Shown here in pieces: positions 28,870 through 64,000 of a DNA stretch of 64,000 nt. The stretch spans positions 140,907-204,906 of the IMG/VR virus record IMGVR_UViG_3300017763_000002; one strand, 5' to 3'. This DNA is from a virus. The notes beneath the pieces are model-generated. The model was not told where the DNA came from and did no database searches. It worked only from the letters and a program-made list of their open reading frames with translations. The position numbers and the translations under genes were made by a program. Position 1 is the first letter of the stretch. Each line of letters opens with the position of its first letter.

Positions 28870-29232
28870 GGGGGTGTTTTGGATTCGATTGTTATTTGAA
28901 AGTTTTAGTGCAGTACGAAGAGATGCCTGGCTTCGTTAAAAGGCATAAAGAAATAAATGCTAAAAACATTGTTTCGTTCGAGGACTTCGTTCATAGCGAA
29001 GAACTCGCTCTTGCAGCTTAGAGCTGCACCTCTTGTTAATGGACGCAGATAAATTATCAAGGGGTCATCAATCTGCAAAAACAGACCAAAGGTTTGCTTG
29101 TTCATAAACTGAAAATAATTGTAACAAGACGTTAGATGTTTATATCCCAACGTTAAAAAAAATAAACTATTACTGTAGACCTAATTCCGAATAATCAACA
29201 AGACGCGGGTTCAAATCCCGCCACCTCCACCA
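28870..29232 (+). ncRNA. ssrA: tmRNA
   Basis: The 5' end GGGGGTG pairs with CACCTCC just before the encoded ACCA, giving a 7-bp acceptor with the G3:U70 wobble recognised by alanyl-tRNA synthetase. The 3' T-arm (GCGGG-TTCAAAT-CCCGC) is canonical. The tag reading frame probably resumes at GCT within AAATAAATGCTAAAAAC and ends ...ELALAA-stop at about 29020, the usual proteolysis tag ending. tmRNA with SmpB rescues stalled ribosomes. Carriage by a phage is uncommon. Confidence 0.9.
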
Positions 29233-38726: not shown

Positions 38727-38802
38727 GCCACCTTAGCTCAGATGGTAGAGCACCTCACTTGTAATGAGGATGTCGTCAGTTCGATCCTGACAGGTGGCTC
38801 CA
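38727..38802 (+). tRNA. tRNA-Thr (UGU)
   Basis: GCCACCT pairs with AGGTGGC; D-arm GCTC...GAGC, anticodon stem CCTCA / TGAGG with loop CTTGTAA giving anticodon UGU, T-arm GTCAG-TTCGATC-CTGAC, and an encoded CCA. It reads ACA and probably supplements codon use in this AT-rich genome. Confidence 0.95.
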
Positions 38803-55553: not shown

Positions 55554-56129
55554 ATGAATTATTGGAATACCAAACAAATACATTGGCATGATTTCAGCCC
55601 CGAAAGTATCTTTATTAAGAGAAATAAAATTAGCAGTCAATTTGACGATGAAATTCAAACTGCATCATATACTACCAAAGGTAGTTTCGTAAATGTGCTT
55701 ACAGACAATCCACATGGAAAATATGGTGGAGTTGTCAAGAAGGCAGTTGGAGTATGCGTTCGATTGCATAGCTTGAAAGATGATTATCCTTGTGCAGAAA
55801 TTGACTTCGTAAAATATAATATTAAGAAACAATATTCTAATGGAGCAGACAAGTGGACTTCGCCTAATGCTATTGCATATATAACAAGCAATCATAGACA
55901 TGGAGAATACAAGCGTGATGCCCAAGGAGATTGGGTTATGGACTATGATCCGATTGTTGCTAGAGATGACGAAGGTTACCAAGTTCACTTTTCTGCAAAT
56001 CAATCTCAATATGGTGGAGATCGCAGAGAATGCCAAGAAATGCTTGATATATCTTGGGCGGTAGTAGATTTTCTAATAGAAAGAGTATTACCTTTGAACA
56101 GAGAAAATAAAATGTTGACAAGCGTTTAA
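55554..56129 (+). CDS. Hypothetical protein
   Basis: 191 aa (YWNTKQIHWHDFSPESIF...; VVKKAVGVCVRLHSLKDDYP; AYITSNHRHGEYKRDAQGDW). Beta-rich with His/Trp. I do not recognise a family. It has a clear leaderless promoter. Confidence 0.55.
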   Translation: MNYWNTKQIHWHDFSPESIFIKRNKISSQFDDEIQTASYTTKGSFVNVLTDNPHGKYGGVVKKAVGVCVRLHSLKDDYPCAEIDFVKYNIKKQYSNGADKWTSPNAIAYITSNHRHGEYKRDAQGDWVMDYDPIVARDDEGYQVHFSANQSQYGGDRRECQEMLDISWAVVDFLIERVLPLNRENKMLTSV

Positions 56130-56143
56130 CATTCTGATTGAAT
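56115..56143 (+). promoter_or_regulatory. Promoter (class I, weak -10)
   Basis: TTGACA, 17-bp spacer, TTGAAT, then 6 nt to the ATG at 56150. Confidence 0.5.
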
Positions 56144-56149
56144 ACTATT

Positions 56150-56461
56150 ATGACAAACGAAAAAACAGAAACCGCTGAAGATATTTTAGAGACAATCAGA
56201 AAAGTTCGTGCGGAACGCATCGAACAACTTCTTGAAACGATTGCAGACTTGAATCCCGAAGCACCTGTTCTTGAGGGTCTTGATGATTCTATCGAAGGAT
56301 ACGATAAAGATGGTCGCATTATTTATAGCGTACATAACATTATAGAGACTTTAATAGAACGAGATGAAATGAGCGAAGAAGAAGCATGGGAGCATTATTC
56401 TTTCAACATCGAAGGTTCTTATTTGGGAGAATACACTCCAATCTTTTTATATCACGAATAG
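56150..56461 (+). CDS. Small acidic hypothetical protein
   Basis: 103 aa (MTNEKTETAEDILETIRKVRAERIEQLL...). Helical front, aromatic tail. The start is set by promoter spacing. Unrecognised. Confidence 0.55.
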   Translation: MTNEKTETAEDILETIRKVRAERIEQLLETIADLNPEAPVLEGLDDSIEGYDKDGRIIYSVHNIIETLIERDEMSEEEAWEHYSFNIEGSYLGEYTPIFLYHE

Positions 56462-56478
56462 TGTAATTATATTTAACA

Positions 56479-56634
56479 ATGGAAAAGCTAAAACAACTAA
56501 TTAATTTAAAAATAGAAGAGATCGAAAACTACAATATCGACACTCAAGAGAATGAAGAAAGATATATACATGAGATAAATTGTCTTATGCAAACCAAGTA
56601 TCTTCTCTTTGGTGACGAACAAATTTTGGTCTAA
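56479..56634 (+). CDS. Small coiled-coil hypothetical protein
   Basis: 51 aa (MEKLKQLINLKIEEIENYNID...). Acidic helix. An AGTGTAATTATA element 9 nt upstream may be its promoter (class II with longer spacing). Confidence 0.45.
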   Translation: MEKLKQLINLKIEEIENYNIDTQENEERYIHEINCLMQTKYLLFGDEQILV

Positions 56635-56698
56635 ACAAAAAAAAATGTTGACATATTTCACAAACCTGTCAGACTTATTATATAACACTTAGAAAATT

Positions 56699-58993
56699 AT
56701 GATTATCACACAAGAAAAAACTAAACGAGTCGTATCGTCTCACGATTTCGATTCTGTAAATTGTACTATTGATGCCGAAGATATGCGTTATGTCGCTTCT
56801 CTTCTTCGCAACAACTATTCCAATCCACCTCTCGCAGTTGTGCGTGAGATTAGTGCAAACGCATTGGATGCAAACCAAGAAGCAAATGCTACTCGCAAGG
56901 TCGAGATTACTTTGCCATCTAAGTTTAATCCAAACTTTTGTGTTCGTGACTTTGGTAATGGTTTAAGCAAAGAAGATATATTTGGTTTATATTCAAAGTA
57001 CGGCAAAAGTACCAAGCGTAATTCCAATTCATATATTGGTGCTTTTGGTATCGGTAAATTTGCTCCATTATCTTATGGAAACAATTTTACTTGCGTATCT
57101 TTTCACGATGGAACAAAAACTTCTTACAATGTTTTCGTCAATGAAGATGACGATACTAAGATTGTGGTTTTACAAGAACCTCAACCATCCAACGAACCAA
57201 GTGGTTTGTCGATAGAAGTTGCCATCGCAGACGAAGATGTAGACAAGTTCAGAGAAATTGTCAAAGCGTTCTTTCGATTCTTTGATGCAAAAGAAATGCC
57301 TAAATTCATTGGCATTGGCGATGACGAACAATTTTTTGACAAGTACGAGGAAGTGCTTGTTGCCAAGGACAATTCTTGGTTTATCATTGATGACAAGCAA
57401 GACTATTGGAGACGAAGTCATTCTCAATCTCATGCTTTCATGGGTAGAGTGCATTATCCTATTAACACTAATTCTATTGATTTCAAAAATTATGTAGAAG
57501 AAGATTACGATTATGCTCCACTAAAGAATATATGTGATGAAGACAATGTCTATCTTAGATTCGATATTGGTGAACTAAAATTGCATCATAGTCGTGAGTC
57601 TTTAGAGTATAACAAAGCTACGCAAAAAGCTATTGTAGAACATCTTAGGAAAATGTACGATGATATTCAAGAGATTGCCAAGGAGAAACTTGGTGGAGCA
57701 ACTTGCTTATGGGATGCGAAAGCAAAGTATGCCCAAGTTATAAATGCTTTACCATACGAACTACGAAGCATCTTTCAAAATAGTTTTAAATGGAAAGGTA
57801 TTCCAATTTTGGGTGCAACCTTTCATAGAAACTATCAGTACAATGAAGATATTACTATTACTGAATATACTAAAGTCGATGACAAAGATGTTACTGATGG
57901 ATATAAAGTAAGAAGTCAAAAAGTAAGTAGAGTTGATGTTCATGTAAACAACAGACTCATCTTGCAAGACATTGCATCTTCGCATGGTAATGCTCTACGA
58001 GCAAGAACTATGTTCAATACTGATGATTCTATTGTGGGTGTATATGTCGTATCTTATACTGATAGTGGTAGTCAATATATGTTTGGTGATGAAGATGGTT
58101 GGCAACTCAATCTTGTATCCAAGAATAATTTACATTATACTAGCAATGTTGAGAAAGCAAAACTCAAGCAAGGTACGAGATCAAGTGGCGAAAGTCGTGC
58201 ATCTGTTCCAACTTTCCTATATGATCCTTGTGGTTACAGAAATTCAGATCAATGGAGAAATGCTTCGGAAGTTGAAGAACTTGAGAAAGACTTAGACGAT
58301 GATTCCTATCTTGTATATATTTCTATTAGTAACTATAAACCATGCGGTAAAATTGGATATGAATTAGATTCATTGAAGCGTGACTACAAAGGTCTAAAAG
58401 CATTATTCAAGAATCTTGGAGATACAAACAAAGGTAACTTTGAAGTTTATGGCATCCGTAAATCAGATGTAAAGAATCTCGATAAATCCAAATGGGTCGA
58501 ATGGCAAGATCATCGCATCAAGGTAGCAAAAGGTGCATTGCTTCGCAGAAAAACCGATCTACTGCGTGGAGAGCGTAAAATCGCTTATCAAGAGCATAGA
58601 CATGAAATGTCAAATGTTAAGAAGCTAGAAAATGCTTTAAGTAATACAACTTTTAGAAATCTTGTGAAAAAGACTCTTGGTACAGATCACGATATTTTTC
58701 AAGCAATGACAATTTTATGTGATTCTCAAAACGATGACATAGTTTTGACTACATTGTACCAACTCAAAAAGTTAGTAGAAGATCAAGACAAAGATTGGTT
58801 CGACAAGCATTTCACTTCTCAATATAAATGGAAGAGTTTCGATTATCTCTGTAAAGATATTGATGACAAATACCCATTACTTGCGAATATATGTTCAAGA
58901 GTTTACGGATGGATAGATTACAAAGAGAATGACTTTGGTAAGAATCTTATTGATTATATTTCTATGTGTGATAACAAAGGGGAAGAGGCATGA
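56699..58993 (+). CDS. rIIA: rIIA-like protein
   Basis: 764 aa. The N-terminus is a GHKL-type ATPase domain: VVREISANALDANQE (N-box, about 47-61), CVRDFGNGLSKED (G1) and GAFGIGKFAPLSYG (G2). The length, the order and a following rIIB-like gene match the T4 rII pair, whose members affect lysis timing and exclusion by prophages. A TTGACA at 56648-56653 precedes it, but with a leader of about 25-30 nt. The stop codon lies inside a strong terminator hairpin. Confidence 0.82.
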   Translation: MIITQEKTKRVVSSHDFDSVNCTIDAEDMRYVASLLRNNYSNPPLAVVREISANALDANQEANATRKVEITLPSKFNPNFCVRDFGNGLSKEDIFGLYSKYGKSTKRNSNSYIGAFGIGKFAPLSYGNNFTCVSFHDGTKTSYNVFVNEDDDTKIVVLQEPQPSNEPSGLSIEVAIADEDVDKFREIVKAFFRFFDAKEMPKFIGIGDDEQFFDKYEEVLVAKDNSWFIIDDKQDYWRRSHSQSHAFMGRVHYPINTNSIDFKNYVEEDYDYAPLKNICDEDNVYLRFDIGELKLHHSRESLEYNKATQKAIVEHLRKMYDDIQEIAKEKLGGATCLWDAKAKYAQVINALPYELRSIFQNSFKWKGIPILGATFHRNYQYNEDITITEYTKVDDKDVTDGYKVRSQKVSRVDVHVNNRLILQDIASSHGNALRARTMFNTDDSIVGVYVVSYTDSGSQYMFGDEDGWQLNLVSKNNLHYTSNVEKAKLKQGTRSSGESRASVPTFLYDPCGYRNSDQWRNASEVEELEKDLDDDSYLVYISISNYKPCGKIGYELDSLKRDYKGLKALFKNLGDTNKGNFEVYGIRKSDVKNLDKSKWVEWQDHRIKVAKGALLRRKTDLLRGERKIAYQEHRHEMSNVKKLENALSNTTFRNLVKKTLGTDHDIFQAMTILCDSQNDDIVLTTLYQLKKLVEDQDKDWFDKHFTSQYKWKSFDYLCKDIDDKYPLLANICSRVYGWIDYKENDFGKNLIDYISMCDNKGEEA

Positions 58994-59019
58994 AAATGCC
59001 TCTCCCCGAATCTTTTTTC
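58979..59019 (+). terminator. Terminator overlapping the rIIA stop codon
   Basis: GGGG-A-AGAGGCAT pairs with ATGCCTCT-CCCC around a GAAA loop (one bulged A), then GAATCTTTTTT. The TGA at 58991-58993 is in the stem-loop, so translation of rIIA may affect termination and rIIB read-through. Confidence 0.85.
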
Positions 59020-59048
59020 TTGACTTTAACAACAATTCAAACTACTAT
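59020..59048 (+). promoter_or_regulatory. Promoter of rIIB-like gene (with leader)
   Basis: TTGACT, 17-bp spacer, TACTAT, then a 24-nt leader with AAAGGA 8 nt before the ATG at 59073. This is one of the few genes with a Shine-Dalgarno-like element. Confidence 0.7.
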
Positions 59049-59072
59049 TATATATAACAAAGGATAAAAATT

Positions 59073-60179
59073 ATGAGCGAAAAATTAGCGTATAACTTGA
59101 GCGAGGATTCCATTACTATTTTTTATGATGGAAAACCTTACACGATCCGAAAGGACAATGCCAACTTCTCAGCTTTGCGATCCGCAATATTTGAAGGTCG
59201 TTACGAAGATGTTCCCGAACTGCTTGATGTAAAGAAAGCAATTACGGACTTCGTAGAGGGCGATGTAGAGGTTAGAGACGAAGTGCTATATTACAAGGGT
59301 AAGCATCGACTACATGGGGTAGTTGTTGACAAACTCTTGGATATGTTGCGTAGTGGAATGAAAGATTCTACTCCGATTACTAACTACATTGGAAGGTTGA
59401 TGAACAATCCATCTTCTAATTCCGTTGATGAACTTTATACTTTTCTTGGGTATCGGTCGCTTCCGATTACTCCCGATGGAAAGGTATTGGGCTACAAAGG
59501 AGTTCAAGGTAACTTTTGGAGTAACACAGGTAATGCCGACACTATCGTTGTGCAAGGTCAAACCAATGATCGTCACCAAATCTACAATGGAGTCGGTGAA
59601 ACCATCGAGATTCAGCGTAGAAGTTGCGATGACAACAAGGATCATCATTGTTCACATGGCTTGCATATTGGTTCGTACGATTATGCAAATAATTGGGCGA
59701 GTAGCGATGGCAAATTGCTTCTTGTGGAGTTTGATCCTCAAGATGCAGTTAGCGTTCCAACCGATTGTGATTTTCAGAAATTAAGGGTTTCTAAGTACAA
59801 GGTAGTCGCAGACATTAGTGATTCTCGTCAAGAGCTTGATAAGGTAGTCTACGAGGCTAATAAGCCTATCTACGGAAGCGACAATGATTCAGATGACTAT
59901 GAGCATGATGAATCTGAAGTGGAAGCAGATTGGGATGCCAACGATGAACCTTTTGATGATTCAGAAGATGCAATCTCTAGACTCTCTGTTAGAAACTACA
60001 TTGAAAACAAAATGGAGAATGGCGAAGAAGTAACTCTCAAGCATATCGCTGATTTGAAAGTCAGTCGTGAAGAAGGTTGGAGAGTGCGTGATATTGCAAT
60101 TCTTCTTGGAGACATGGGTTTTGATATAGAAGAAGATGAAGATAAAATCATGTCAAATTGGAGAGTTGTGGAATTGTGA
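59073..60179 (+). CDS. rIIB: rIIB-like protein
   Basis: 368 aa. YNLSEDSITIFYDGKPYTIRKDNANFSALRSAIFEGRYEDVPELLDVKKAI and the later LYTFLGYRSLPITPDGKVLGYKGV...HGLHIGSYDYAN follow the rIIB pattern of T4-type and many large phages. The C-terminal acidic linker and helical region are variable. It works with rIIA in T4. The end overlaps the next gene. Confidence 0.85.
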   Translation: MSEKLAYNLSEDSITIFYDGKPYTIRKDNANFSALRSAIFEGRYEDVPELLDVKKAITDFVEGDVEVRDEVLYYKGKHRLHGVVVDKLLDMLRSGMKDSTPITNYIGRLMNNPSSNSVDELYTFLGYRSLPITPDGKVLGYKGVQGNFWSNTGNADTIVVQGQTNDRHQIYNGVGETIEIQRRSCDDNKDHHCSHGLHIGSYDYANNWASSDGKLLLVEFDPQDAVSVPTDCDFQKLRVSKYKVVADISDSRQELDKVVYEANKPIYGSDNDSDDYEHDESEVEADWDANDEPFDDSEDAISRLSVRNYIENKMENGEEVTLKHIADLKVSREEGWRVRDIAILLGDMGFDIEEDEDKIMSNWRVVEL

Positions 60180-60427
60180 TGGAAACATTAGTTAAAAATA
60201 AATTAATAGATTCGATTGGACAGGCAGATTCAGCAAAAGTGGATGCTTCTTGGGCAATTCTTAAATATAAAGAAATTGGGATTTATAGAAAAGTTGCTTG
60301 TCTATGTGAATTATATAATATATCTTTAGAAGATGTAGTTCAAGCATTACCTCAAGATGATGAAGGAAGATTGCTAGATTTTAAAACTAGAAAAATCATT
60401 CACGATTCATTGCTCGCAAGATCGTGA
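60179..60427 (+). CDS. Small helical hypothetical protein
   Basis: 82 aa from METLVKNKLIDSIGQADSAKVDAS; the ATG overlaps the rIIB stop (TGATG). The last residues overlap the next GTG start. Unrecognised. Confidence 0.5.
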   Translation: METLVKNKLIDSIGQADSAKVDASWAILKYKEIGIYRKVACLCELYNISLEDVVQALPQDDEGRLLDFKTRKIIHDSLLARS

Positions 60428-60666
60428 ACGAAGAACAAGAGCTTCAAATTCATATCTTACAACAAGAGCTAACGCAAATATTGGAACGAATAAGCGAGGT
60501 GCATGATGATCTCACAAGTCAAGAGCAAGTCAGAGACTATCTTGCTGACTTAATCAGCACATTAGGGTTCTTTCATAGAAGAAAAAATTATTTCAGAATG
60601 AAATATGACCTCACTCATGCTATCGCTTTTCTTCCAAGAGCGTTCCCGATCATGGAAGATTTCTAA
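60424..60666 (+). CDS. Small helical hypothetical protein
   Basis: 80 aa with a GTG start (VNEEQELQIHILQQELTQILERISEVH...). Helical, heptad-like. Overlaps upstream by 4 bp. Confidence 0.5.
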   Translation: MNEEQELQIHILQQELTQILERISEVHDDLTSQEQVRDYLADLISTLGFFHRRKNYFRMKYDLTHAIAFLPRAFPIMEDF

Positions 60667-60673
60667 AATAAGC

Positions 60674-60702
60674 TTGACCTTTTAATTAAATTAAATTAAT
60701 AT
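60674..60702 (+). promoter_or_regulatory. Promoter (class I)
   Basis: TTGACC, 17-bp spacer, TAATAT, then 10 nt to the ATG at 60713. An overlapping TATTAT at 60700-60705 gives 7 nt to the ATG. Confidence 0.6.
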
Positions 60703-60712
60703 TATATACATC

Positions 60713-61126
60713 ATGGGATTAGATCAATACGCATATTCAAAAGATTCAAATGGCGAGGAACAGGAAATCGCATATTGGAGAAAGCACAACCGACTGCAAG
60801 GTTGGATGGAACAACTATGGGAAGATAAGGGTAGACCAAATTTTCTTGATGGTGCTGAAGAGACAGGCATGGGAGACTTTAATTGCGTTCCACTTGCAAT
60901 CAACGAGGAAGATTTAGATAGTCTTGAAGATAATGTTTGCGGTAAGACCTTGCCCGATACTCATGGATTCTTTTTCGGTGATGATTCATTTGAATGGCAA
61001 GATGAGAACGGAAACTCTTTTGAGGAGAATGATTATTATTACAAAGAAGATGATATTGACTTTATAGAAAAAGCAAGACAAGCTTTGAAAGAGAAAAAAG
61101 AAGTTTATTATAATTGTTGGTGGTAA
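60713..61126 (+). CDS. MGLDQYAY-type phage protein
   Basis: 137 aa. Begins MGLDQYAYSKDSNGEEQEIAYWRKHNRLQGWME, the pattern of a small conserved protein seen in many phages, with unknown function. Acidic C-terminus with many Tyr and Trp. Confidence 0.65.
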   Translation: MGLDQYAYSKDSNGEEQEIAYWRKHNRLQGWMEQLWEDKGRPNFLDGAEETGMGDFNCVPLAINEEDLDSLEDNVCGKTLPDTHGFFFGDDSFEWQDENGNSFEENDYYYKEDDIDFIEKARQALKEKKEVYYNCWW

Positions 61127-61133
61127 ATATATA

Positions 61134-61688
61134 ATGATAAAAGAAAGATCAACAAAGTTCACCCCAAACGGAATACAAGATAATCGTTCTTTATATGGAA
61201 CTAAAGACATGGACGAGATGATTGATTTTATTAAAAATACTTATTCCACTATCAATGATACTGCATTTAATTTTTATAAAAATAATAAAGATGCAACTAT
61301 CTTTGGATTCTCGAAAGACGAACATGACAATAGAATGAAATATTATGTAGAATATTCAGACGAACATTCGGGGCAAATATTATCATTAATTGAACAAGAC
61401 AATCAATATACAAATAGAAAATATATATTAAGTAAAAGCATGAATCATTATCGTTGCTTTAATACTGATAATAAATTCAACACTAATGGTCGGGCAACAT
61501 CTTTTTATTTTAGATTAAACAATCCATTAAAATATTGGGATGAAATTCAACGCATGGCAAAGAAAAGAAATTTTGATTTATCAGATTGGTTAGAGCAAGT
61601 CGGTAAGGTTATTTTAACCACAACCAAACTTACTCCAACAGAACTTACAATATATTATAGAACATTAGAGGATGGATTAAATGATTGA
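61134..61688 (+). CDS. Hypothetical protein
   Basis: 184 aa (MIKERSTKFTPNGIQDNRSLYGTKDMDEMIDFIKNTY...). Mixed beta/helix, charged. Unrecognised. Overlaps the next membrane peptide by 8 bp. Confidence 0.5.
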   Translation: MIKERSTKFTPNGIQDNRSLYGTKDMDEMIDFIKNTYSTINDTAFNFYKNNKDATIFGFSKDEHDNRMKYYVEYSDEHSGQILSLIEQDNQYTNRKYILSKSMNHYRCFNTDNKFNTNGRATSFYFRLNNPLKYWDEIQRMAKKRNFDLSDWLEQVGKVILTTTKLTPTELTIYYRTLEDGLND

Positions 61689-61782
61689 TATAATTGAAAC
61701 TATAAATAGTATTTTCATTTTATTAGGTTTGACGGCTCTCTTATTATTTGTTTTATTTATTGCTTTTACTTTCGATGATTAA
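61681..61782 (+). CDS. Small single-span membrane peptide
   Basis: 33 aa (MIDIIETINSIFILLGLTALLLFVLFIAFTFDD), one long hydrophobic helix. Start overlaps the upstream gene. Confidence 0.4.
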   Translation: MIDIIETINSIFILLGLTALLLFVLFIAFTFDD

Positions 61783-62028
61783 TATGTTGGTAATAGATAA
61801 TATACAATAACATTCTTTATATCATATATATATCATACTAAGATAAGAACAAATAACACACAAACATTATTACTTGATTTATATTAAGTTATTGATTATA
61901 ATTGTTTTATATATAAATACTTGTTACTAAAGGGATTCCAAGTGTTTCATTGTGGGTCAAAATGGTTCAGAGTGGAGTACGCGACTTCAATATATATAAA
62001 TATAAGTGAAAATATAATCAATAAACAA
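61783..62028 (+). other. AT-rich gene-poor stretch
   Basis: About 246 bp of very AT-rich sequence with runs such as TATATCATATATATATCATAC. An island of ordinary composition (61930-61985) sits in it without a convincing reading frame. No promoter with a proper -35 is seen. It could be a recombination or origin-like region, which cannot be proven here. Confidence 0.3.
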
Positions 62029-62202
62029 ATGAAAATAACAAAAATAATAAATCAAATAAAAGAAAAATTGTTTCCTCGCTCTAATTATCTTAATTTAACT
62101 AATAATAATAAATTAAATAGTGGCGAAATGAAAATTGTAAATGAAAATAATTCAAATACAAATAAAGCGAAGCGAAATAAATACGGATTTCCAAACATTT
62201 AA
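62029..62202 (+). CDS. Small Asn/Lys-rich protein
   Basis: 57 aa from MKITKIINQIKEKLFPRSNYL, Asn/Lys-rich with no promoter or structural motif. Weakly supported; the region is AT-rich enough to give chance ORFs. Confidence 0.3.
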   Translation: MKITKIINQIKEKLFPRSNYLNLTNNNKLNSGEMKIVNENNSNTNKAKRNKYGFPNI

Positions 62203-62274
62203 ACGCATTACTGCTCTTTTTAATATATTTTAACTGATTAATATATATTAATTGGCTCGCTCGCAAGTTTTCGG

Positions 62275-62303
62275 TTGACAAACAAACAATATTGCACCAT
62301 ACT
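62275..62303 (+). promoter_or_regulatory. Promoter (class I, leaderless)
   Basis: TTGACA, 17-bp spacer, CATACT, then 8 nt to the ATG at 62312. Confidence 0.7.
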
Positions 62304-62311
62304 TATATTAT

Positions 62312-62545
62312 ATGAGCGACTTAACACGAAATATAAATGCTTTGCTAGATGAGATGAATGATATTAAATCAAATACATCTATAACAGACGACACTATTGA
62401 AAATATAATAACTGATCTTAATAATTTAACTAATAATGGTTCAAATGTTAATGATATATTTACTAATAATTATTATGTTAATGATATGGGTGAGGATCGC
62501 AGATGTGCGAGTGGTAAAATCTTTGGATTCAAGCATTCAAATTAA
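62312..62545 (+). CDS. Small Asn-rich hypothetical protein
   Basis: 77 aa (MSDLTRNINALLDEMNDIKSN...). Asn/Thr/Asp-rich helices, then RRCASGKIFGF. Leaderless start. Unrecognised. Confidence 0.55.
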   Translation: MSDLTRNINALLDEMNDIKSNTSITDDTIENIITDLNNLTNNGSNVNDIFTNNYYVNDMGEDRRCASGKIFGFKHSN

Positions 62546-62560
62546 ATTGCAAACGATATA

Positions 62561-62752
62561 ATGACAAATAAACACAATGCCCCGAAATCATCTGAATATA
62601 AACTCGAAATAATTGATAAAACAATTAATGAAATTATATTAACTTATACAAATAAAAATATAAATGATTTGATTGAAATTATGAATGACTTTCCCCTTAA
62701 TAAATATAGTAGGAAGTTAGTCGGTGAAGAGATATATCTTTGGGAAGCGTAA
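62561..62752 (+). CDS. Small hypothetical protein
   Basis: 63 aa (MTNKHNAPKSSEYKLEIIDKTINEI...). Asn-rich. Ends 1 bp before the next gene. Unrecognised. Confidence 0.5.
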   Translation: MTNKHNAPKSSEYKLEIIDKTINEIILTYTNKNINDLIEIMNDFPLNKYSRKLVGEEIYLWEA

Positions 62753-62753
62753 C

Positions 62754-62954
62754 ATGGACACTTTTAATGAAAATATAATTAATATTGAAAATATATTAAG
62801 AGATGGTGACCAAATAATGATATGGAAGGGCGGATACCAAACAACCTTCAAGGGTATGGGTAGCACCAATCACGCTATATGTCGAGAAAATGAAGAAAAA
62901 TCGACATATCCAAAAAAAAGTGTTGACACAATCGACACATCGTGCGATACTTAA
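62754..62954 (+). CDS. Small hypothetical protein
   Basis: 66 aa from MDTFNENIINIENILRDGDQIMIWKGGYQ. The start follows the upstream stop by 1 bp. Its end overlaps the promoter of the next gene. Unrecognised. Confidence 0.5.
   Translation: MDTFNENIINIENILRDGDQIMIWKGGYQTTFKGMGSTNHAICRENEEKSTYPKKSVDTIDTSCDT
62923..62951 (+). promoter_or_regulatory. Promoter (class I, leaderless)
   Basis: TTGACA, 17-bp spacer, GATACT, then 6 nt to the ATG at 62958. The region is inside the end of the upstream gene. Confidence 0.7.
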
Positions 62955-62957
62955 ACC

Positions 62958-63239
62958 ATGAATTACGCAGAACAACAACTCGAATATCTTAATAGACCTA
63001 AACAGGTAAGCACACACGAAACGCTACGCAAGCAACCCGATCTTGCAGAAGAGGTAAGTCACCTCACTATGCACTTGAACGGCAACGCATCTGAGCTTGT
63101 ACAACACATTGGTTTTCTTGGAGACAAGATAGAAGATCAATCAAGTGCGACTAGAGATTATCTCGATGATATAAGATCATCAATAGATAAGAATACAGAA
63201 GCATTAAACTTAATTGCACAGATATTAAGAAACAAGTAA
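62958..63239 (+). CDS. Small helical hypothetical protein
   Basis: 93 aa (MNYAEQQLEYLNRPKQVSTHETLRKQPDLAEE...). Acidic helical bundle, leaderless start. Unrecognised. Confidence 0.55.
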   Translation: MNYAEQQLEYLNRPKQVSTHETLRKQPDLAEEVSHLTMHLNGNASELVQHIGFLGDKIEDQSSATRDYLDDIRSSIDKNTEALNLIAQILRNK

Positions 63240-63270
63240 TAAATTTATTAATACTAATTAAAATATAATT

Positions 63271-63480
63271 ATGAGTATAGCAAAAAACGCACGAGCATCA
63301 CAGATAATGCGGAATGTCAAGAGTGGGCATTATATAAACAACGGCAAGTTTGCGGGATTCGGGTCTATTCCCGAAGATAGCATCTACTACCATACTTGGT
63401 TGGCAGAGCAAGCTGATCGCAAAAGCAAAGAGCGTATGGCTCAACAAGCTATTCGGAAAGGAGTTCGTTCTCATGCCTAA
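63271..63480 (+). CDS. Small basic hypothetical protein
   Basis: 69 aa (MSIAKNARASQIMRNVKSGHYINNGKFAGFG...). Basic, Ala/Gln-rich tail. Overlaps the next gene by 8 bp. Confidence 0.5.
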   Translation: MSIAKNARASQIMRNVKSGHYINNGKFAGFGSIPEDSIYYHTWLAEQADRKSKERMAQQAIRKGVRSHA

Positions 63481-63655
63481 GTATTCAGTATTTGTAAAGA
63501 TGCGACACATGGCAGAGTTTCTAATAGAAGCCGAAGACGAAGATCATGCAAGAGCAATCGTGGATTGTGGCGAACATACCGATGAAGAGTGTGTTGAGTT
63601 ACGAGCACTTGATAGTGAGATAGACAGGATAGAATCAAATGATAACTCTGACTGA
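63473..63655 (+). CDS. Small acidic hypothetical protein
   Basis: 60 aa from MPKYSVFVKMRHMAEFLIEAEDEDHARAIV, the pattern of a small alpha/beta phage protein. The longer upstream frame is a shadow of the preceding gene. Overlaps the next by 17 bp. Confidence 0.5.
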   Translation: MPKYSVFVKMRHMAEFLIEAEDEDHARAIVDCGEHTDEECVELRALDSEIDRIESNDNSD

Positions 63656-63851
63656 ATCACCACCCCTTAAAGTTTGTGATCGGGCTTTTGATAAACAATC
63701 AGTTGATATATGTATAAAGATTAGAGAGATGCTTGAAGCAGAATTTGATCTTAATATAAGAGATCATGGATTATGGAGAATACAATGCTTAATATATGAT
63801 GAAATAAAAGAGAAAGAAGAAATTCAAAAAAAAAGATTGACAAATAGTTAA
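63639..63851 (+). CDS. Small helical hypothetical protein
   Basis: 70 aa (MITLTESPPLKVCDRAFDKQSVDICIKIREMLEAEF...). Helical, charged C-terminus. The end overlaps the -35 and spacer of the promoter below. Confidence 0.5.
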   Translation: MITLTESPPLKVCDRAFDKQSVDICIKIREMLEAEFDLNIRDHGLWRIQCLIYDEIKEKEEIQKKRLTNS

Positions 63852-63865
63852 ATATATAGTATAAT
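63837..63865 (+). promoter_or_regulatory. Consensus promoter without a following start codon
   Basis: TTGACA, 17-bp spacer, TATAAT: a perfect consensus. Transcription should start near 63872, but no reading frame starts there. It leads into the hairpin at 63939-63984. Confidence 0.8.
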
Positions 63866-63938
63866 TATTACATAATCAAAATTGAGAACCAAACTCAAAT
63901 AAATAAAATAAATTGATCTTTAACATTTTATAACACTT

Positions 63939-63984
63939 TGGAACAATGAGTCGATAGCTGAGTATCGGACATTGACTCGTTCCA
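63939..63984 (+). ncRNA. Structured RNA element at window end
   Basis: TGGAA...TTCCA, GAGTC...GACTC and GATA...TATC nest into one long hairpin (pairs at 63939-63943/63980-63984, 63948-63952/63974-63978, 63953-63956/63963-63966). It lies 67 nt after the predicted start of a consensus promoter. It may be the start of a non-coding RNA or a long leader cut by the window edge. Confidence 0.45.
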
Positions 63985-64000
63985 TTCTATTTGGAAGGGC

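Follow-up and report, generated by a model that had tools for sequence, protein, structure and literature searches.

The locus at the contig end

The stretch of DNA analysed here (the window, 64,000 nucleotides) constitutes the last 64 kb (bases 140,907–204,906) of a 204,906-bp IMG/VR record of a marine phage, IMGVR_UViG_3300017763_000002, classed as linear. The final base of the record is also the final base of the window, so that the contig breaks at the window edge; a stretch common to co-occurring strains may account for a break at this point. The RNA gene that is cut off by the contig edge is most likely non-coding, and the following parts of it can be recognized in the window:

63837–63865, plus strand: consensus sigma-70 promoter (TTGACA at 63837–63842, a 17-nt spacer, TATAAT at 63860–63865)
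63882–63898, plus strand: leader hairpin TTGAG...CTCAA, the loop of which also pairs downstream (pseudoknot) in some relatives
63914–63925, plus strand: boxA-like motif TGATCTTTAACA, 11/12 identical to TGCTCTTTAACA of E. coli rrnB
63939–63984, plus strand: arm hairpin, an optional and exchangeable arm
63993–64000, plus strand: predicted first 8 bases of a manA RNA core (5′ side of its first hairpin), with the rest beyond the contig

An earlier reading, made from the sequence alone (the sequence-only reading), had pointed to a full consensus TTGACA-N17-TATAAT with no coding start behind it, and both observations stand. The match at 63837–63865 is the sole exact one in the window, where shuffles expect 0.03, and a second exact consensus promoter with 16–18 nt spacing occurs once in the joined record (record position 101128). 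In the relative L013, 26 of the 29 promoter bases are identical, and a promoter of the TTGAC type stands ahead of the boxA-like motif in all 36 relatives having upstream sequence. The upstream open reading frame terminates within the promoter spacer, at 63851. Between the promoter and the window end, no open reading frame of at least 60 aa is found, and the ATG and TTG starts past the promoter, followed by eye, run into a stop within six codons with the exception of a single TTG frame, which is open at the window edge and stops after 16 codons in L013. Transcription would start near 63872, and expression, judged from the consensus promoter, may be high.

Collection of relatives

A 29-base hairpin pattern retrieved a single further viral contig (L010, record G001, the same record as L013), to which a second pattern added L012 (record G002). 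With a gapped pattern built on manA landmarks, 51 stretches were obtained from viral contigs; a second such pattern gave 37, 23 of them already among the 51. Genome contigs contributed three landmark matches, two of which carry manA according to the covariance model. Once duplicates of kept records (L010, L011, L017, and L071) had been dropped, the counts given below drew on two groups, one of 28 cyanophage-type loci with L082 added and one of 38 loci in the window's class. L078, which belongs to the latter class, has a truncated core and is excluded from the 38, though a terminator is found there too. L082, from a Clostridium MAG, matches the landmark pattern and fails to match the manA model; it is still among the 29 cyanophage-type rows of the terminator count.

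The manA core

An Rfam scan, which the sequence-only reading had proposed as a check, returned no match on the last 200 bases of the window, even at E 10, because only 8 model bases are present there; the family, manA (RF01745), was found in relatives that continue past the break. In L012 (77.9 bits) and L013 (73.6 bits), both of which run past the break point of the window, position 1 of the manA model aligns at GGAAGGGC, the last 8 bases of the window, which are 8/8 identical in L012, L013, and L087. The L083/L087 contig, from a MAG, is 94.7% identical to the window over 63666–63930 and runs on into manA (75.2 bits) and then into a terminator. The scored relatives of the window's class reach 71.4–92.9 bits, against a cut-off of 55.2, over model positions 1–192; the gathering score is attained by L012, L013, L083/L087, L084, six further loci, and nine records, these sets partly overlapping. 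Each of 11 whole records (nine of the window's class and two of the cyanophage type) holds one manA copy above the cut-off. The window itself and the first 140,000 bases of its record, which end 906 bases short of the window, gave no manA match. Since the core is missing from this contig, the manA membership of the window rests on its relatives: it is firm for those that were scored and probable, by their sequence likeness, for the window.

Of the 47 predicted pairs of the core, 17 vary on both sides with pairing preserved among 28 non-redundant relatives, and the closing helix consists of six pairs that never vary. A T-tract (at least 5/8) lies no more than 14 nt past the closing helix in 28/28 cyanophage-type loci (16 distinct ones, L082 being left out), where shuffles expect 8.8, and in 36/38 loci of the window's class, where they expect 12.9. 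Although both groups fit the same covariance model, the scores of the window's class are below the 182.6 bits of two cyanophage-type records, and the class adds a boxA-like leader, optional arms, and, in most loci, a terminator.

A boxA-like leader

Between promoter and core, a small hairpin (63882–63898) and a boxA-like motif (63914–63925) had escaped the sequence-only reading, as had the fact that the last 8 bases correspond to the beginning of a known RNA. The hairpin stands ahead of the motif in most loci and is missing from L012, L020, L023, and L068, which retain the motif. In the window, the hairpin loop can form at most 3 pairs with downstream bases. A leader pseudoknot of at least 4 pairs is possible in 10/23 leaders, compared with a mean of 2.9 and at most 9 in 2000 shuffles, which keep no relatedness among the leaders, the figure of 10/23 being uncorrected for kinship.

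The TCTTT at the heart of the motif is invariant in 25/25 aligned leaders, the window included, which is partly by construction as the 36 loci with a boxA-like motif were found by a pattern containing TCTTT. The window motif, GATCTTTAACA, departs by one mismatch from GYTCTTTAANA, and 10/36 relatives match this consensus strictly, although it is the gamma-proteobacterial one (PMC5725501) and may not be that of the host. By its own account, the boxA survey in the same paper left non-coding RNAs unconsidered. PMC4807359 credits boxA with recruiting NusB/NusE and with keeping Rho from terminating the transcription of rRNA. The order of promoter, hairpin, and boxA is the same here as in the E. coli rrnB leader; the likeness covers these three elements, short of boxB or boxC equivalents, and the phage leader differs in that it heads a non-coding RNA.

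An optional and exchangeable arm

The nested hairpin of three paired segments that had been reported about 67 nt further on was recovered by computation at 63939–63984, and the distance agrees when counted from a transcription start expected near 63872. Its segments comprise 6, 8, and 4 pairs, and its predicted stability of −19.4 kcal/mol (z −4.3) is reached by 1/200 shuffles; for the whole stretch 63870–64000, z is −2.5 and 4/200 shuffles are as stable. The weight that the sequence-only reading had placed on this hairpin was misplaced: the hairpin amounts to one optional arm, and the conserved part of the RNA, its core, is situated past the contig edge.

The distance from the boxA-like motif to the core takes two ranges in 36 loci, namely 24–26 nt in 20 and at least 75 nt in 16, with none between, and this division is not a product of the motif pattern used for the search. 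The 20 loci with the short distance are arm-free, while the other 16 hold from ~50 to 207 extra nt (54 in the window). The arm of the window (63939–63992) is present in 2/36 relatives, agreeing at 54/54 positions with L013 and at 53/54 with L012, and short TTTGGAA repeats flank it in all three. L013 agrees with the window at every one of the window's final 67 bases (67/67), with flanking pieces at 70–77% identity, and a blastn comparison of the last 10 kb of the window with 9 kb around the RNA of L012 gives 89 bases of the RNA as its sole match. The cores of L012 and L013, both of which carry the arm of the window, are 91.4% identical; those of L083, which has an arm, and L037, which has none, are 98.5% identical. 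A second arm of L013 recurs in L047 and L054 with 98.8% identity over 83 nt. Arms are thus shared across distant phages and differ between near-identical cores, and it follows that they come, go, and move between phages. Most of them fold on themselves better than shuffles do; the exceptions are the arm shared by L047 and L054 (matched in stability by 26 and 37 of 100 shuffles) and the L041 arm (14/100). A second variable region extends from core to terminator, with related 3′ stretches in L013, L069, and L083, and in L080 and L081.

Terminator and downstream genes

An intrinsic terminator follows the core in 35/38 loci of the window's class, compared with 1/29 cyanophage-type loci examined by the same script, the remaining 28/29 having none within 330 nt. 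L046 and L053 were scored as terminator-less, even though visual inspection reveals longer hairpins followed by a T-run. Of the 35 terminators, two are weak (L012, −9.1 kcal/mol; L084, −8.5 kcal/mol) and one, that of L074, is distant, at 244 nt past the core; in nine of the 35 loci the gap between core and terminator amounts to 86–178 nt. In 31/35 loci, the 90 nt that begin with the terminator contain a promoter-like site (at least 9/12), against a fifth to a quarter expected by chance as estimated from the density of such sites; L068, L074, L080, and L081 lack one. The predicted transcripts of 33 relatives for which both ends were found measure 280–697 nt. The sequence-only reading had left two options, a non-coding RNA or a long structured leader, and had named a coding gene behind an ordinary leader as the finding that would speak against it. 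The relatives favor the non-coding RNA, given their terminator and the promoter-like site after it, and such a coding gene is absent from 37 of the 38. The exception is L023, which has no terminator, carries a start codon ~30 nt on, and is laid out like a 5′ leader.

By a loose start-motif test, the next gene downstream belongs to one family of ~84 aa in 24/38 loci; in the remaining loci the next genes differ. Three named cyanophages have the start of their next annotated gene ~17–99 nt past the matched stretch. tRNA islands were considered as a consistent neighbor and discarded, ARAGORN placing tRNAs on 8/33 loci of the window's class, ~0.7–3.3 kb from the RNA, and detecting none in L012 or L013.

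Relation to known RNAs

The manA RNA was described in 2010 as a 5′ UTR riboswitch candidate from marine metagenomes and cyanophages (Weinberg 2010; PMC2864571, in its accessible text), and what could be consulted of PMC9964418 repeats this description for a cyanophage. A section of PMC10832533 on RNAs found in a transcriptome locates a manA motif ~1.4 kb from a tmRNA and near a tRNA array on a Bifidobacterium megaplasmid, and manA serves as an example in the accessible parts of PMC7779021 and PMC7657543. No report of a manA ligand was found in the accessible texts on manA, and no description of a free-standing manA class was found in those on manA, GOLLD/ROOL, and phage boxA. Like the present RNA, GOLLD and ROOL are large, structured RNAs of phages that have no assigned function. 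From the portions available, GOLLD combines a conserved 3′ part with a less conserved 5′ part (PMC12286853), and a non-coding RNA of GOLLD/ROOL size is the most abundant transcript of phage ICP1 (PMC7567579). In contrast, the RNA of the window's class is shorter, as judged from the predicted transcripts, and the GOLLD and ROOL Rfam models matched none of the stretches scanned (window, record, and relatives).

Interpretation and alternatives

It seems likely that the end of the window represents the 5′ part of a free-standing phage RNA gene of the manA type, equipped with a leader resembling that of an rRNA operon and with exchangeable arms. A strong host-type promoter would start a transcript that comprises the leader hairpin, the boxA-like signal, a swappable arm, and the manA core. 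Its 3′ end is most probably set, a few hundred bases on, by an intrinsic terminator, as seen in the relatives. Since the leader is like the start of a ribosomal RNA operon, host Nus factors may be expected to load on it; they would shield the long untranslated RNA from Rho and perhaps aid its folding. The finished RNA would act in trans during infection, with the arms as putative exchangeable modules for partner binding or shielding. A wider and distinctly more tentative proposal is that a group of uncultured marine phages might employ a single-copy, trans-acting RNA built as a miniature rRNA operon, with a Nus-recruiting boxA leader and partner-changing arms, in which case the manA family as a whole would serve phages as an RNA machine and not as a riboswitch. 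The T-tract past the closing helix in all 28 cyanophage-type loci would fit this proposal.

The filing of manA as a riboswitch candidate corresponds to a rival explanation in which the core, on sensing a ligand, would govern the terminator behind it and, through that terminator, the next gene in cis. This appears unlikely, and the arrangement expected of it, a 5′ UTR without an intervening terminator and promoter, is encountered in the relatives at L023 alone. In most loci a promoter-like site after the terminator (31/35, with a fifth to a quarter expected by chance) separates the RNA from the next gene, core and terminator can lie 86–178 nt or, in L074, 244 nt apart, and the next gene is a different one in the other loci. 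The explanation keeps some weight because the same ~84-aa gene family comes next in 24/38 loci by the loose test, which could mean cis-regulation, and because L023 resembles a 5′ leader. If the DNA rather than the RNA mattered, as an origin, packaging, or recombination site with incidental hairpins, the termination of the contig at this place and the TTTGGAA repeats around the arm would find an explanation; we regard this as highly improbable, since the core displays RNA-type covariation (17/47 pairs), is flanked by promoter and terminator in one orientation, and is separated from both contig ends by over 16 kb in 10/11 other records, the exception being G010 (~1 kb).

A reading that concerns the leader, and to which we assign somewhat less than an even chance, explains the boxA-like motif by a role in RNA folding or processing alone, with no Nus complex involved. 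Strict agreement with the consensus in only 10/36 relatives is in line with it, with the reservation that this gamma-proteobacterial consensus may not be that of the host. Nus recruitment, by contrast, is favored by the resemblance to E. coli rrnB in both the motif (11/12) and the order of elements, by the invariant TCTTT of the aligned leaders, and by the four loci in which the motif is kept and the leader hairpin is absent. The free-standing RNA gene outlined above would also be a candidate example of a non-coding phage RNA with a boxA. Its own terminator, its rRNA-like leader, and the swapping of arms argue that at least this manA branch would be a free-standing RNA, contrary to the classification in place since 2010, and such a reading changes which experiments make sense for manA.

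Other features of the phage

BLASTN searches against annotated phages gave no match for window positions 56100–64000 or for the RNA region of L012. A 21-base match, the only one obtained for L054 in that collection, and a single 27-base match in a plasmid search were taken as chance. The large terminase subunit, identified by PHROGs, retrieved 75 phage records, all below 60% identity and none covering 80% of the query, and the phage is therefore considered remote from the phages in that collection. It encodes a tmRNA (tag AKNIVSFEDFVHSEELALAA) and a tRNA-Thr (window 28870–29232 and 38727–38802, respectively) as well as a 764-aa protein with an HSP90-like ATPase domain (56699–58993), which we take to be rIIA-like. 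Near-consensus promoters (11/12) followed by an ATG 6–7 nt past the −10 box occur at positions 2935, 4136, 177885, 180484, 188633, 191418, and 192295 of record G000, which suggests leaderless or nearly leaderless phage mRNAs. On the minus strand of L004 (18624–19889), a 422-aa DUF1501 protein (E 8e-111) is encoded, to our knowledge an unusual protein for a phage; DUF1501 is associated with Planctomycetes and Verrucomicrobia, and its presence is a possible hint at the host.
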